A DNA stretch of 25,632 nt, from the IMG/VR virus record IMGVR_UViG_3300034063_000870, positions 1 through 25,632 of that record. One strand, given 5' to 3'. Made by a program: the position numbers and the translations under genes. The notes beneath the pieces are model-generated. The model was not told the DNA's origin, searched no databases, and saw nothing but the letters and a program-made list of their open reading frames with translations. Each line of letters begins with the position of its first letter. The stretch's first letter is position 1. Positions 47 through 3,588 of the stretch are shown piece by piece. Source of the DNA: a virus.

Positions 47-403
47 ATGAAAAAACATCCAACAAGGTTCGATGGATATTATGTCTCTGAGGATGGTAAA
101 GTTTATAGAGAACCTCATAAATTTTTTGACGGGAAAGATAGGAAGGACTTAGTGGAAGTTAAACAATTTCTTAGAGGGGGAGCATATACTCGACAATATG
201 CCTCAGTGAATATATCAATAAAGGATAAAGATGGAAAAACCACTCACCAAATTAAAGAGTATATTCACAGAATAATTGCAGAAACTCTTTTAGATAATCC
301 GCACGGGTATACTGAGGTCGATCATATTGATAGAAATAAACTCAATAATAATGCAAATAATCTGAGATGGTGTGATAGAAAAACAAACAGAGCAAATAGA
401 TGA
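47..403 (+). CDS. HNH homing-type endonuclease, free-standing
   Basis: Predicted DNA endonuclease of 118 residues, of the HNH_3 type common as free-standing mobile genes in T4-like phages. The N-terminus has a NUMOD4-like DNA-binding motif (FDGYYVSEDGKVYR, about residues 8-21). The middle has a YIHRIIAETLLDNP block (about 73-86), which usually precedes the nuclease. The C-terminus has the HNH core VDHIDRNKLNNNANNLRW (about 91-108), with the His, the Asn pair and a closing Asn-rich tail. It should nick or cut a specific phage DNA site and spread itself. The reading frame stays open to the left edge, so an upstream start cannot be excluded; ATG 47 fits the normal start of the NUMOD4 motif. No good Shine-Dalgarno sequence is visible. 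Arg codons are nearly all AGA/AGG. The target site is unknown. Confidence 0.8.
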   Translation: MKKHPTRFDGYYVSEDGKVYREPHKFFDGKDRKDLVEVKQFLRGGAYTRQYASVNISIKDKDGKTTHQIKEYIHRIIAETLLDNPHGYTEVDHIDRNKLNNNANNLRWCDRKTNRANR

Positions 404-447
404 GAAGACGTAAAACCCCTTATTGGAACTTCTGGAAGGTTGGTTAA
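400..447 (+). CDS. Possible 15-residue micro-ORF MRRRKTPYWNFWKVG
   Basis: An ATG at 400 overlaps the stop of the HNH gene (ATGA arrangement) and opens 15 codons reading MRRRKTPYWNFWKVG. It stops 11 bases before the terminator stem. The peptide is strongly basic at the start and rich in aromatic residues, which is unusual for random DNA. It could be a coupled leader-like peptide, the remnant of a gene interrupted by the HNH insertion, or chance. No homologue is recognised. Confidence 0.22.
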   Translation: MRRRKTPYWNFWKVG

Positions 448-458
448 TACGATATCCA

Positions 459-503
459 CGGCAGTGCTTCACGATCTTCGGAGGCACTGCCGGATTTTTG
501 TTT
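459..503 (+). terminator. Rho-independent terminator after the HNH gene
   Basis: CGGCAGTGC (459-467) pairs perfectly with GCACTGCCG (484-492). The stem continues inward through T468-G483, T469-A482 and C470-G481, then, past one bulged base, C472-G480, G473-C479 and A474-T478, leaving a 3-base loop. A T-rich tract (GATTTTTGTTTG) follows directly. This separates the HNH gene from the cupin gene. Apart from this hairpin and the micro-ORF, the gap 404-550 shows only a weak promoter candidate. Confidence 0.85.
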
Positions 504-507
504 GTGT

Positions 508-518
508 TGATATATAAT
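508..518 (+). promoter_or_regulatory. Weak promoter candidate (extended -10 like)
   Basis: TGATATATAAT just after the terminator contains an extended -10 reading (TGA-TATATA, 508-516) or a TATAAT at 513-518. No recognisable -35 box lies at the right spacing, because that region is the terminator stem. It is a plausible driver of the cupin gene at 551, and only a candidate. Confidence 0.3.
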
Positions 519-550
519 GCAGTGAGATAAAAAATCCCGGAAAAAATTTT

Positions 551-889
551 ATGACTACAGAGGTTCGCCCATGGGGGTTATTTGAGAATATCTTAGAAGA
601 GATTGATTATAAGGTAAAGAGAATTATTATCTCACCAAATCACTCAATATCACTCCAATATCATTTCCATAGGGAAGAGTATTGGATAGTTGTTGAGGGT
701 GATGGAGAATTGACTCTAGAAGACTCTGTAAGGACCTTAGAGGTTGGTGATAGTGTGTTTATAAGGAAGGAAGAATTACATCGTCTCAGAGCAGGGAAGA
801 ACGGTATTACGGTGATTGAAACACAACTTGGAGTATGTGATGAGGAGGATATTGTTAGATTAGAGGACAATTATGGGAGAGTAGAGTGA
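551..889 (+). CDS. Stand-alone cupin, type II phosphomannose isomerase C-terminal domain
   Basis: A 112-residue single-domain protein matching the metal-binding cupin that normally forms the C-terminal half of bifunctional mannose-1-phosphate guanylyltransferase/phosphomannose isomerase (ManC/AlgA type, PF01050). Visible signature: RPWG (6-9), SLQYHFHREEYW (about 34-45, with the two His and the Glu expected to bind metal), VVEGDGEL, VFIRKEELHRL (with the further metal-ligand His), VIETQLG, and the terminal DIVRLEDNYGR. The nucleotidyltransferase half is absent. It probably interconverts fructose-6-phosphate and mannose-6-phosphate or modifies a related sugar, but cupins with this sequence can have other sugar roles. 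Its stop overlaps the start of the next small gene by one base (TGATG), so the two are translationally coupled. The start has no strong Shine-Dalgarno sequence. Arg codons are mixed AGA/AGG/CGT/CGC. Confidence 0.85.
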   Translation: MTTEVRPWGLFENILEEIDYKVKRIIISPNHSISLQYHFHREEYWIVVEGDGELTLEDSVRTLEVGDSVFIRKEELHRLRAGKNGITVIETQLGVCDEEDIVRLEDNYGRVE

Positions 890-1080
890 TGGAAAAGATT
901 TATCACATATACGCAAAAGATCGTTGTTTATTTCATTCGATCAAAGAAGAAGAATTTGAAGTCACTTGGAAGACCTTAAAGAACATGGTAGGTATTATGC
1001 ATACTGATTATGAGATTGATGATTTATCTTATGAGGAACTTATGGTGAACCGGAAAGTCTCCTTAGAAGGTTCGTATTGA
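889..1080 (+). CDS. Small acidic protein A, coupled to the cupin
   Basis: Predicted 63-residue acidic protein of unknown function (about 13 Asp/Glu against 8 Lys/Arg), beginning MEKIYHIYAKDR. I prefer ATG 889 over the in-frame GTG at 886. ATG 889 sits in a TGATG overlap with the cupin stop and has a purine-rich GGGAGAG ribosome-binding site about 8 bases upstream. It resembles the small protein at 1898: both start with ME, then a Y...K.R segment, an EE pair, a V...L segment and a C-terminal EID/DIE..L..EE block. The two look like diverged copies of one family. Both follow directly on a sugar-related enzyme, which suggests a partner or regulator role (inference). The TTGACA box of the downstream promoter overlaps its stop codon. 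Confidence 0.7.
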   Translation: MEKIYHIYAKDRCLFHSIKEEEFEVTWKTLKNMVGIMHTDYEIDDLSYEELMVNRKVSLEGSY

Positions 1081-1106
1081 CAAGAGCATATATAGACTGT
1101 TAAAAT
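1077..1106 (+). promoter_or_regulatory. Sigma70-type promoter for the glycosyltransferase gene
   Basis: A perfect -35 box TTGACA (1077-1082) is followed, after an 18-base spacer, by TAAAAT (1101-1106; 5 of 6 matches to TATAAT). Transcription should start near 1113, just upstream of an AAGG (1115-1118) and ATG 1131. The -35 overlaps the stop codon of the preceding gene. This is the best host-sigma promoter visible in the window, and suggests early or constitutive expression of the gene at 1131, independent of phage late transcription. Confidence 0.65.
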
Positions 1107-1130
1107 TGATCTTGAAGGTTATTTTTTCTT

Positions 1131-1898
1131 ATGGCAAAAGGATTTACTTTGAAGGCTAATGCACCCAAGCCTAAAGAGGCGGAATGGGATTATGAGGCAA
1201 TTAAGGAACGAATGAAGGGCAAATCAATTGTCTTCTGTCTTCCTGGTCGTGGGTGCTCATTTACATTTCTGAAGGCATTTGTGCAACTCTGTTTTGATCT
1301 TGTACAAAACAATATGAGCATTCAGATTTCTCAAGATTATAGTTCGATGGTGAACTTTGCTCGTTGTAAAGTTCTTGGTGCAAATGTTCTCCGTGGTCCT
1401 AAGCAGATTCCTTGGGATGGTAAACTGAATTATGATTATCAACTGTGGATTGATAGTGACATCGTATTCAACACCGAAAAGTTCTGGCAACTGTGTGATC
1501 TTGCACTGAGTGAAGAAGGTGAAGAGAAAGAGATCGTAGCAGGTTGGTATGCAACTGAAGATGGTCATACGACATCTGTTGCTCACTGGTTGGAAGAAGA
1601 TGACTTCCGTAAGAATGGTGGAGTCATGAATCATGAGAATGTAGAAGGTATTTCGAAACGTCGTAAACCTTTTACTGTTGACTATACTGGTTTCGGTTGG
1701 GTTCTGATTAAGAAGGGTGTCTTTGAGAATCTTGAGTATCCTTGGTTTGCTCCTAAGATGCAAGTCTTTGAATCTGGAGCAGTTCAAGATATGTGTGGAG
1801 AAGACGTATCATTCTGTCTTGATGCAAAAGAATCTGGATTTGATATCTGGTGTGATCCTCGTATTCGTGTGGGACATGAAAAAACTCGTGTGATCTGA
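1131..1898 (+). CDS. Putative GT-A-fold glycosyltransferase
   Basis: A 255-residue soluble protein resembling a cyanophage family of putative glycosyltransferases. Features: an Ile/Val-rich first strand after residue 30 (GKSIVFCLPGRG); MVNFARCKVLGANVL (about 73-87), typical of the nucleotide-sugar region; a DxD-type motif in YQLWIDSDIVF (about 104-114), expected to bind metal and sugar nucleotide; and a C-terminal GEDVSFCLDAKESGFDIW block with GHEKTRVI at the end, similar to the acceptor-side motif of GT-A enzymes. No membrane segment is seen. Codon use differs sharply from the structural genes: all ten Arg codons are CGN (nine CGT, one CGA) with no AGA. It has its own sigma70-type promoter and a weak AAGG site 12 bases before the start. 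Its stop overlaps the next start (TGATG). The sugar and acceptor are unknown; modification of virion proteins or host glycans is possible. Confidence 0.7.
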   Translation: MAKGFTLKANAPKPKEAEWDYEAIKERMKGKSIVFCLPGRGCSFTFLKAFVQLCFDLVQNNMSIQISQDYSSMVNFARCKVLGANVLRGPKQIPWDGKLNYDYQLWIDSDIVFNTEKFWQLCDLALSEEGEEKEIVAGWYATEDGHTTSVAHWLEEDDFRKNGGVMNHENVEGISKRRKPFTVDYTGFGWVLIKKGVFENLEYPWFAPKMQVFESGAVQDMCGEDVSFCLDAKESGFDIWCDPRIRVGHEKTRVI

Positions 1899-2047
1899 TG
1901 GAACACTTTAATATCTTATACAAAGGACGTAAGATATATCAGGACCTTACATATGAAGAATGTGCTGAGGTCCTTGACGAATTATCCTCTAAGTATTATA
2001 CTGATGAGGAATTTGATATTGAACAATTAGAACTGGAGGAAATCTAA
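1898..2047 (+). CDS. Small acidic protein B, coupled to the glycosyltransferase
   Basis: A 49-residue highly acidic protein (about 15 Asp/Glu against 4 Lys/Arg) starting MEHFNILYKGRK and ending FDIEQLELEEI. ATG 1898 overlaps the glycosyltransferase stop (TGATG) and its own TAA overlaps the next ATG (TAATG), so it lies in a tightly coupled three-gene run. No ribosome-binding site precedes it, so translation probably depends on reinitiation after the upstream gene. It looks like a paralogue of the 63-residue protein at 889. Function unknown; the context suggests a partner of the preceding enzyme (inference). Confidence 0.65.
   Translation: MEHFNILYKGRKIYQDLTYEECAEVLDELSSKYYTDEEFDIEQLELEEI
2035..2039 (+). 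promoter_or_regulatory. Strong Shine-Dalgarno GGAGG for the basic small protein
   Basis: GGAGG ends 7 bases before ATG 2047. It is one of the two strongest ribosome-binding sites in the window. It fixes 2047 as the start of a real gene in this reading frame, against an overlapping ORF starting at 2057 in another frame. Confidence 0.7.
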
Positions 2048-2193
2048 TGGCTAAAGGTGGTGGATCTAATAAGACTATTTTTGAACCTGGAGCACCTAAA
2101 AAGACACGTCAAGGTCGTTCTGCACGGACTCTTCTCTCTGCAACCTCTCGAAATGGTCGAAAGAAAAGGTATCGTGGTCAAGGTAAAGGTTAA
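2047..2193 (+). CDS. Tiny basic phage protein (MAKGGGSNKTIFEPG family)
   Basis: A 48-residue, very basic protein rich in Lys, Arg and Gly, starting MAKGGGSNKTIFEPGAPKK and ending KKRYRGQGKG. From memory, small proteins with the SNK...PG.PKKT..G.S start and the YRGQG end recur in T4-like cyanophages, with no assigned function. The charge and lack of hydrophobic segments suggest nucleic-acid or ribosome binding, or an extended peptide that binds a structural protein (inference). The start is supported by GGAGG 7 bases upstream and a TAATG overlap with the previous gene. It is the last gene before a strong terminator. It is below the size limit of many gene finders, and a longer overlapping ORF in another frame (2057-2260) is probably spurious. 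Confidence 0.75.
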   Translation: MAKGGGSNKTIFEPGAPKKTRQGRSARTLLSATSRNGRKKRYRGQGKG

Positions 2194-2196
2194 TAT

Positions 2197-2204
2197 TATA
2201 GATA
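2197..2204 (+). promoter_or_regulatory. Weak late-promoter-like TATAGATA
   Basis: TATAGATA matches the T4 late-promoter core TATAAATA at 7 of 8 positions and lies about 37 bases before the start at 2241. It overlaps the first base of the terminator stem, so a transcript starting there would begin inside or just after the hairpin. Low-confidence candidate for late expression of the gene at 2241. Confidence 0.3.
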
Positions 2205-2231
2205 AGACAGGGATTATTCTCTGTCTTTTTT
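2204..2231 (+). terminator. Rho-independent terminator closing the small-gene cassette
   Basis: A 10-bp stem (2204-2213 with 2218-2227, one G-T pair) with a TTAT loop is followed by a run of T and then TTATTATTTT. It lies 10 bases after the stop of the basic protein and about 10 bases before the next start, so it ends the cassette that begins at the promoter at 1077. The next gene must use its own promoter or read-through. Confidence 0.88.
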
Positions 2232-2240
2232 TATTATTTT

Positions 2241-2939
2241 ATGGCATACTTAAATCATAATCTACCAACAATTACTTGTTACATTCGCAACGAATTCCTT
2301 TTTAATCATAAAAAAGGTCATGGAGAGGTAACTTTATGTGACGTACACTCTGTAGCATCCTTAGAGAAGCATGTACCCCTCTTTGAGGCGTTTCTAGAGA
2401 ATGGAGTCAACTGGACCCGAAGACCCATTCATGCATTTTGTTGGAAACCTGATGCACCAGTTCCTGAATTAGAGGAGTGTATGTGGTGGGATTGTTTTTC
2501 TCCTTATATTGATGTTCAAGTTCGTTCAAGATTATCCAACTTACGTGCCGAACTTATCAATTACAGAGGAGAAAAGAATGAAGGAACATATCTTTTTACT
2601 CTTGATTGGTCATGGGAGTCAAAATCTACTCTGAATACTAACTTTAGTGAGACTCCAGAGCATAAATGTGCTCATTTCTTTAAGATGGATAACGGTAATT
2701 TTTATGCGTACCCTAATAATAAAATATTATGGTATGATGATGCATGGACAAAGAACAGAATTACCAAAAATCCAGGTTATGAGATTGATTTGACCGAATA
2801 TTCAGTAGAAAATCGTCGTAAAATTGAAACATCTGATGATTTTATGTACGAAGTTACTGAAATTCGGGATAGCAACCCCGTAAAAAGTTCTGATTTAACA
2901 AATCAGGAGAGCACAAATGGGAAAACCAGCAGATCGTGA
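2241..2939 (+). CDS. Conserved-looking phage protein of unknown function
   Basis: A 232-residue protein starting MAYLNHNLPTITCYIRNEFL. No enzyme motif is recognised. It is rich in Trp and aromatic residues in the middle (ECMWWDCFSPYIDV, about 79-92; TLDWSWES, about 118-125), and has a long polar tail from about residue 190. The first 190 residues look globular, with no signal peptide or membrane segment. The start ATG follows the T-tract of the terminator directly and has no clear ribosome-binding site. Its last 23 bases overlap the start of the next gene, which suggests the two are co-expressed. Position just before the baseplate block makes a morphogenesis or assembly role possible, but nothing in the sequence shows it. 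Confidence 0.7.
   Translation: MAYLNHNLPTITCYIRNEFLFNHKKGHGEVTLCDVHSVASLEKHVPLFEAFLENGVNWTRRPIHAFCWKPDAPVPELEECMWWDCFSPYIDVQVRSRLSNLRAELINYRGEKNEGTYLFTLDWSWESKSTLNTNFSETPEHKCAHFFKMDNGNFYAYPNNKILWYDDAWTKNRITKNPGYEIDLTEYSVENRRKIETSDDFMYEVTEIRDSNPVKSSDLTNQESTNGKTSRS
2905..2909 (+). promoter_or_regulatory. Strong Shine-Dalgarno AGGAG inside the previous gene
   Basis: AGGAG, continuing as AGGAGAG, ends 7 bases before ATG 2917 and lies within the coding region of the 2241 gene. It supports the overlapping start at 2917 as genuine. Confidence 0.65.
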
Positions 2940-3159
2940 CCAAAATTACATGTACGAACTATGGGGAACCACTAATTTAACTTCAGATTATGGAATTTTT
3001 GAGAAAATTAAAGATAAAAAGATGCTTCGTGAGATTTCTAATGATGATTTGACTCCCAAAAAGCATGATTTTCAGGTTCAAAACGATTTACACTCAAAAA
3101 TTCGTAACGATGATGATTATGATGATTGGGAATACGGTACAGAACCACTTTATGGGTGA
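2917..3159 (+). CDS. Small acidic phage protein of unknown function
   Basis: An 80-residue, hydrophilic, Asp-rich protein starting MGKPADRDQNYMYELWG. It has a central Lys-rich part (IFEKIKDKKMLREIS, about 27-41) and an acidic C-terminus (NDDDYDDWEYGTEPLYG, about 64-80). No family is recognised. The start is well supported by an AGGAG site, and it overlaps the preceding gene by 23 bases in another frame. Its stop codon TGA is the first three bases of a palindrome that also carries a late-promoter motif for gene 25. It may be a small assembly or chaperone-like factor given its position and composition (inference only). Confidence 0.65.
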   Translation: MGKPADRDQNYMYELWGTTNLTSDYGIFEKIKDKKMLREISNDDLTPKKHDFQVQNDLHSKIRNDDDYDDWEYGTEPLYG

Positions 3160-3179
3160 TAAATAAGATAGATTTATCA
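3157..3179. repeat. Perfect palindrome with late-promoter motif
   Basis: TGATAAAT (3157-3164) and its exact reverse complement ATTTATCA (3172-3179) flank a 7-base spacer AAGATAG. The left arm contains the stop codon of the preceding gene and the late-promoter core. As RNA it would form a weak AT-rich hairpin; as DNA it is a symmetric site. Confidence 0.75.
3158..3165 (+). promoter_or_regulatory. Late promoter candidate GATAAATA for the baseplate operon
   Basis: GATAAATA fits the NATAAATA form of the T4-type late promoter reported for cyanophages and lies 21 bases before gene 25. It is well placed to start late transcription of the baseplate genes. There is no -35 box, as expected for this promoter class. 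Confidence 0.55.
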
Positions 3180-3186
3180 TATTTTC

Positions 3187-3588
3187 ATGCCAGTAGAACG
3201 GCTAAGTAGAGGTTTCAAAGACATTAGTATGTCATTTCAGGTTAATCCCCTGAATAATGACTTAATTTCTATTAAAAATGAGACTGCTATTGCCCGTTCA
3301 GTCAGAAATCTCATCTTTACTCTTCCCGGAGAAAGATTTTTTAACGAAAATCTCGGTTCTAGAGTATCTCAAACACTTTTTGAGAACATGGATGAGATTT
3401 CTGCATCTGTGATTAAAGATGAAATCACTAATACCATCAATAATTACGAACCAAGAGTTGATTTAATTTCGGTTGATGTTTCTCCAAATTATGATGATAA
3501 TGAATTTAATGTGACTATTAATTATTATATTGTTGGAATTGATGTATTACCGCAACAATTATCATTTGCATTACAGCCAACACGATAA
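3187..3588 (+). CDS. 25: Baseplate wedge protein gp25
   Basis: A 133-residue protein of the GPW/gp25 family (T4 gp25 is 132 residues). In T4 it forms part of the core that ties wedge to hub and starts sheath assembly. Diagnostic segments: a short N-terminal extension followed by DLISIKNETAIARSVRNLI (about 32-50), LPGERFFNENLGSRV (about 52-66), and the EPRVDLISVDV strand with the conserved Glu-Pro-Arg (about 94-104). The lysozyme-like catalytic role once proposed for the family is not implied here. The gene starts just after a NATAAATA motif without a clear ribosome-binding site, and its TAA overlaps the ATG of gene 6 (TAATG), so the two wedge genes are coupled. Confidence 0.93.
   Translation: MPVERLSRGFKDISMSFQVNPLNNDLISIKNETAIARSVRNLIFTLPGERFFNENLGSRVSQTLFENMDEISASVIKDEITNTINNYEPRVDLISVDVSPNYDDNEFNVTINYYIVGIDVLPQQLSFALQPTR

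Follow-up and report, generated by a model that had tools for sequence, protein, structure and literature searches.

Does the small-gene region near the start of this viral DNA hold two enzymes that each carry a dedicated small partner protein, or do its repeated stop/start overlaps reflect ordinary gene packing? The window, that is the whole 25,632 base stretch analysed here, is a virus record representing part of a T4-like cyanophage, in which a region of small genes precedes the baseplate genes gp25 and gp6. A first-pass annotation had described two sugar-related enzymes, a cupin and a glycosyltransferase (GT), each followed through a one-base TGATG overlap by a small acidic protein, which we call S1 and S2 respectively. 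All four genes are present as described, and both overlaps are confirmed. The pattern that was drawn from them is half real, and it is mostly ordinary compact virus gene packing. Our preferred reading of the locus as a whole, to which we give a probability of roughly 0.55, is that two transcription units meet here, that S2 is coupled to GT and binds it, and that S1 is not a partner of the cupin. The features concerned are as follows.

551..889, + strand: cupin, type II mannose-6-phosphate isomerase-like, 112 aa (Pfam PF01050); an optional insertion ahead of S1
889..1080, + strand: S1, 63 aa from the ATG at 889, net charge -5; phrog_2626 (T4-GC 557 in some phages); predicted beta-beta-alpha-beta
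1077..1106, + strand: sigma-70-like promoter of the GT unit (TTGACA, 18 bases, TAAAAT), 11/12 matches; its -35 box overlaps the S1 stop codon
1131..1898, + strand: GT, GT-A-like glycosyltransferase, 255 aa; phrog_1574 (T4-GC 102)
1898..2047, + strand: S2, 49 aa, net charge -11; phrog_3252 family (T4-GC 103 in P-SSM2); predicted beta-beta-alpha-beta; one-base overlap with GT
2047..2193, + strand: basic 48-aa protein, net charge +13; phrog_516; its ribosome binding site falls within the last codons of S2
2204..2237, + strand: terminator-like hairpin and T run, with a 10-pair stem at 2204-2227, 3' of the unit formed by GT, S2 and the basic protein

Downstream of the small-gene region lie gp25 (Pfam GPW_gp25, E 1.1e-15) and then gp6, and a 4001-aa reading frame occupies the place of gp7 as judged from relatives. 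Judged by identity in GT and S1, S-SM2, Bellamy, S-SCSM1 and SynMITS9220M01 are among the nearest cultured phages; each belongs to the Kyanoviridae and infects Synechococcus. According to the available portion of PMC3037559, cyanomyoviruses have a hot spot of small genes between gp46 and gp25, which is the same genome place as the S1/GT/S2 locus; T4-GC 102, 103 and 557 receive no mention in the main text of that source as available. Two further frames flank the genes of interest. Upstream, at 400-530, a small membrane-protein-like frame, whose start overlaps an HNH gene by 4 bases, appears interrupted (a stop after 15 residues, with a related continuation in another frame), and frames similar to it (median 60 aa) stand upstream of S1 in 86 groups. 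Downstream, a 232-aa frame at 2241-2939 belongs to a family that PHROG labels 'ferredoxin' (phrog_3704), and Pfam returned nothing for it at E 1.

The two small proteins had been called paralogues, and this part of the annotation is upheld by a detectable profile-profile similarity above controls, together with the same predicted order of structural elements. Plain BLASTP of S1 against S2 gave nothing useful (E 0.086 over 6 residues). Profile-profile comparison gave a probability of 90% over 32 columns; with gap columns removed, as was done for the control, it gave 76% with a score of 27.2, against 22% and 20.1 for the best of 200 column shuffles. The AlphaFold2 model of S1 (mean pLDDT 81.8) has strands at 2-9 and 12-19, a helix at 20-36 and a strand at 46-53, and that of S2 (mean pLDDT 90.3) has strands at 4-8 and 11-17, a helix at 19-36 and a strand at 44-48. 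S1 and S2 are thus distant paralogues within one superfamily. PHROGs v4 holds them as two families of unassigned function, phrog_2626 for S1 and phrog_3252 for S2; in distinction from that division, profile and predicted fold link them here, and their contexts are told apart. The window S1 matches phrog_2626 at E 5.8e-17 over profile positions 4-59 of 59, and 60/60 S1 homologues match this family. Matches of S2 homologues to phrog_3252 are less uniform, being found in 37/44 (best 3e-19) and lacking in 7/44, with the window's own S2 reaching only E 8.4e-5 over positions 4-36 of 53; 5/60 S1 homologues also match this family. S1 and S2 correspond to T4-GC 557 and T4-GC 103 of marine T4-like cyanophages, and the matches seen are in cyanophages. 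No description of the two small proteins was found in openly accessible literature. They are known families in a known kind of arrangement, and what is new is the relation between S1 and S2, the tested contexts and the overlapping signals described below.

Median dN/dS ratios of 0.25 for S1, 0.30 for S2 and 0.07 for GT indicate purifying selection, estimated from the pairs that remained (1570/7381 for S1, 2253/4465 for S2) once saturated, too close or too distant pairs were left out. On these ratios we reject the idea that S1 and S2 are spurious reading frames.

With S1, a viral fold search placed an S-SM2 homologue at rank 1 as the sole match with an E of 0.001 or better, followed at ranks 2-9 by proteins of 12-34% identity and TM-scores of 0.44-0.82, of which 6/8 are named Synechococcus phage proteins. 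A fold search of the PDB with S2 found nothing at E 0.001 or better, and PDB sequence searches with GT, S1 and S2 gave no useful result. The best VIA-align Z values were 4.7 for S1 and 2.8 for S2. Among the aligned structures are entries of phage p56, an inhibitor of uracil-DNA glycosylase, which raises the idea that S1 and S2 inhibit host enzymes by mimicking DNA. Like p56, S1 is a protein of about 50-60 aa and acidic, as S2 is too, and the S1 model aligns weakly to p56 over 42-44 residues (4l5n Z 3.3, 8ail Z 3.0, 2le2 Z 2.6); however, a Z under 8 may be merely a common arrangement, no p56 is listed for the S2 model, and profile comparison with phi29 p56 (queried as phi29 gp0.8, whose record describes it as similar to NP_040721.1, PZA p56) gave probabilities of 0.25% and 0.24%. 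The p56 sequence pattern E-x2-Y-x(0,2)-G, as given in the available part of PMC10303552, occurs in 0/121 S1 and 27/93 S2 sequences. With no sequence signal and the published pattern absent from S1, we regard inhibition in the manner of p56 as highly improbable.

Of the two proposed enzyme partners, GT is the one whose link to its small neighbour holds up. A profile query with S2 yielded 80 viral-contig loci in 53 distinct groups, these loci being the best 80 of 481 confirmed relatives with distant S2s under-sampled, and GT lies directly upstream in 52/53 of the groups, the remaining one being cut by the contig end. S2 homologues therefore follow a sugar enzyme wherever it could be seen in this sample, as the annotation had anticipated, and are not found mostly next to unrelated genes. 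The repeated enzyme-small protein pairing consequently survives for S2 and GT and falls away for S1 and the cupin, S1 occurring mostly without a cupin. GT and S2 are spaced at -1 in 71/95 groups, and in one group outside the 95 they are ~550 bases apart. Whole-record searches of 17 cultured phages, picked from earlier matches, delivered the exceptions: the S2 of S-CAM7 sits ahead of gp25, with GT at a distance of 115 kb in the record; S-BM3 carries S2 but lacks GT; in Sf-CH5 one gene separates the two; and S-SM2, Bellamy, S-B43 and S-SSM7, all of which have GT, yielded no S2 when their records were searched whole. Among the 123 groups having S2 or the basic gene after GT, 28 pass from GT directly to the basic gene without S2, in 26 of them with at most 68 nt between. 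S2 is a regular partner gene of GT in cyanophages, with few cultured exceptions. In S-SSM7 the gene that overlaps the end of GT by one base, in the slot of S2, encodes 54 aa and belongs to a different family (phrog_31958) with no match to S2.

GT itself matches phrog_1574 (E 5e-116) and the glycosyltransferase-labelled phrog_34859 (E 1.7e-8), and no Pfam family was found in 16/16 members. Across 16 aligned members D108-x-D110 is invariant and mean column identity is 87%; the PHROG label and this invariant D-x-D are the grounds on which we call it a glycosyltransferase, a predicted activity. Should S2 prove to be a subunit of GT or to regulate it, this would provide a first point of entry to a cyanophage enzyme that is very conserved and whose target is unassigned. 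A second, more distant GT paralogue lies at 206631-207287 of the ACG-2014f_Syn7803C7 record (E 9.1e-71). GT is also carried, at 74-89% identity to this phage gene, by ten contigs in bacterial/archaeal metagenome bins, all titled MAG, where it is probably phage contamination.

For S1 the corresponding search gave the opposite outcome. The cupin is a confident family member and a predicted enzyme (Pfam MannoseP_isomer, PF01050, E 1e-26, 93.8 bits vs a cut-off of 23.6), and counting only groups with enough upstream sequence it precedes S1 in 19/49 groups from the window S1 query and in 0/55 and 0/38 from two distant S1 queries, for which reason it looks like an addition or insertion before S1 in one clade. 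Starting from the cupin, 19/21 groups have it directly before S1 (the remaining two, more distant cupins have no S1 adjoining), and all 19/19 measured show the one-base overlap. Despite these 19/21 groups, a functional cupin-S1 pair is rejected, since S1 mostly occurs without a cupin (none in 30/49, 55/55 and 38/38 groups); the proposal of S1 as a dedicated cupin partner therefore fails, and homologues of S1 lie mostly next to unrelated genes (heme oxygenase, PTOX and others). In the five cultured phages where both were found, cupin and S1 are 6.7 to 137 kb apart in the record.

S1 is rather a cyanophage gene, usually in one copy; many phages have it ahead of GT, others downstream of unrelated genes. 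A strong phrog_2626 match (E 1.4e-14 or better) occurs once each in 12/14 cultured phages searched whole; S-SSM7 has a second, weak match, S-SRM01 has a weak match only, which falls on its S2, and none was found in the whole record of S-CAM9. GT follows S1 in 49/49 groups with room from the window S1 query, in 19/46 from a P-SSM4 query and in 21/33 from a P-TIM40 query, and P-HM2, P-SSM4, P-RSM4 and P-TIM40 have S1 with no GT in the whole record. In three of these the upstream neighbour overlaps S1 by 4 bases: it is heme oxygenase in P-HM2, the hn gene in P-RSM4 and, in P-SSM4, T4-GC 427, which comes after nrdB. We surveyed 207 S1 groups with 400 bases upstream (from 251, having dropped 29 in which no S1 start or motif could be recognised and 15 close to the edge of a contig), and in 72/207 a reading frame of at least 40 aa overlaps S1 by 1 or 4 bases; these frames fall into 17 clusters, some short members of which may not be genes, and the clusters include cupin (19), heme oxygenase (6) and PTOX (5). 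It is conceivable, though we consider it rather improbable, that S1, S2 and other tiny beta-beta-alpha-beta cyanophage proteins belong to a single family of acidic companions. Each would be joined by a stop/start overlap to a different metabolic enzyme (glycosyltransferase, mannose isomerase, heme oxygenase or plastoquinol oxidase) and, while the phage infects its host, would adjust how active that enzyme is or how long it lasts.

How much weight the overlaps can bear depends on how common they are. One-base overlaps also occur at S2/basic gene (2047) and gp25/gp6 (3588), so that -1 overlaps make up 4/11 junctions counted in the window, and in 14 annotated cyanophage stretches 40/237 same-strand junctions (17%; 16 + 24) have 1- or 4-base overlaps. 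Two TGATG junctions are therefore unsurprising in themselves, and an overlap taken alone is cheap evidence for enzyme pairing here, even though the accessible part of PMC10666635 describes a general enrichment of short overlaps between genes whose products are subunits of a complex. A reading by genome compaction alone, in which S1 and S2 are small accessory genes of the kind usual in the gp46-gp25 hot spot and neither overlaps nor linkage carry functional meaning for the neighbouring enzymes, draws on this overlap frequency, on the many different upstream partners of S1, on the absence of S2 or its separation from GT in some phages, and on the hot-spot description in the available portion of PMC3037559. 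It fits less well with a GT that S2 adjoins in all but the truncated group and with the recurrent -1 spacing of the two genes, and we hold it to be a serious possibility at somewhat less than even odds.

What distinguishes the two halves of the locus is a set of signals that overlap coding sequence. The TTGACA-18-TAAAAT site is the best of 13 promoter-like sites in 380-3300, where 10.2 are expected, so it is conservation and not occurrence that argues for a promoter at 1077-1106. A promoter-like site is present in 147/153 GT-adjacent S1 loci (0.8 expected in base shuffles), with TTGACA lying over the S1 stop codon in 124/153. Where GT is absent, such a site follows S1 in 8/38 loci (0.25 expected) and the -35 box lies over the stop in 3/38; where GT is near but not adjacent, the figures are 3/18 and 2/18. 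Upstream of S1 a search for a conserved promoter returned 5/149 vs 4.9 expected, none supported. At the other end, a terminator-like site occurs within 90 nt after the basic gene in 55/122 relatives (1.4 expected), compared with 2/95 at GT/S2 and 0/117 at gp25/gp6. By these promoter and terminator patterns, GT, S2 and the basic gene appear to form a single unit, and cupin and S1 the end of another.

The protein ends must be read in the light of the same signals. The annotation had taken an acidic L..EE end as a feature shared by S1 and S2, and this does not stand: S1 homologues mostly end in S-Y, S-H or S-F, and the EE of S2 coincides with the ribosome binding site of the next gene. The codons of the S2 'LEEI' tail contain GGAGG, which is the basic gene's ribosome binding site, and such a motif lies inside S2 codons in 85/89 groups with a gap of at most 5. 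EE occurs in the last 8 residues of S2 in 81/89 of these groups and in 1/6 with a larger gap. An acidic tail as the conserved end of S1 was likewise rejected, an S-Y, S-F or S-C end being kept in 38/38 loci without GT, where it is probably conserved at the protein level. An S-H end is found in 72/153 GT-adjacent loci vs 1/68 others, and its codon CAT fits the -35 box. Here the same DNA serves twice, with a stop codon inside a promoter box and a ribosome binding site inside coding sequence, a warning that conservation at the end of a phage protein need not reflect only what the protein does.

A motif resembling a ribosome binding site precedes S2 in 0/95 groups, gp6 (also overlapping) in 1/117 and the basic gene in 111/123. 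The lack of such a motif, together with a start on the GT stop codon, makes reinitiation probable for S2. This conclusion must be tempered by gp25, which has such a motif in 0/120 although it has no overlap, so that a missing motif before S2 is no proof of coupling. In the translationally coupled termination-reinitiation pairs with TGATG or ATGA junctions described in the accessible parts of PMC6728339 and PMC10666635 the same one-base overlap is found as in GT-S2, where no RBS-like motif stands before S2; in distinction from the pairs of those sources, both coupling and complex formation are proposed for GT-S2 from its sequence.

Gene order, linkage, promoter and terminator patterns, the placement of ribosome binding sites and the family relation are evident at the locus itself, and promoter use, reinitiation and binding of S2 to GT are inferred. 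In the mechanism that we prefer, the unit of GT, S2 and basic protein would run from a sigma-70-like promoter of its own, with a -35 box that partly coincides with the S1 stop, to the terminator. S2 would probably arise by termination-reinitiation, with GT fixing the ratio, and the last S2 codons would in turn hold the ribosome binding site from which the basic protein is translated. The most likely role of S2 would be to bind GT as a non-catalytic small subunit or modulator. Taken by itself, binding of S2 to GT is a tentative proposal that we put at distinctly below even chances; weighing against the partnership are the 28/123 groups and four whole records with GT and no S2, the cases of S-CAM7, S-BM3 and Sf-CH5, the phrog_31958 protein in the S2 slot of S-SSM7, and the promoter-like sites after S1 in 8/38 loci that lack GT, and the linkage may reflect co-transcription only.

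The same junctions allow S2 to be assigned to its other neighbour, as an acidic chaperone or antidote that serves the basic 48-aa protein and not GT. The two have opposite charges (medians of -8 and +13), and the start of the basic gene is close to or overlaps S2, with its ribosome binding site within S2 as described. In most relatives the gene for the basic protein is found behind GT or S2, as at the 122 loci examined for its charge and terminator. Against the assignment, however, it follows GT without S2 in 28/123 groups, and P-SSM2 and S-CAM7 have another annotated gene next after S2, which leaves this assignment unlikely compared with S2 as a partner of GT.

S1 in turn could be the toxin, or the partner, of an AbrB/MazE-like antitoxin (phrog_661) in a pair resembling a toxin-antitoxin system. 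A phrog_661-like gene lies at most 400 nt upstream of S1 in 28/207 groups, overlapping by 1, 4 or 8 bases in 12/28, and 2/4 phrog_661-like proteins have a Pfam MazE_antitoxin match (best E 2.8e-5, just below the cut-off); against this, S1 is without such a gene in 179/207 groups, and we consider the pairing very unlikely. GT lies downstream in 26/26 phrog_661-S1 groups with room, from marine contigs and cultured phages, and in S-CAM7 an unannotated S1 frame lies between the AbrB-like gene (phrog_661) and the displaced GT (at 182198).
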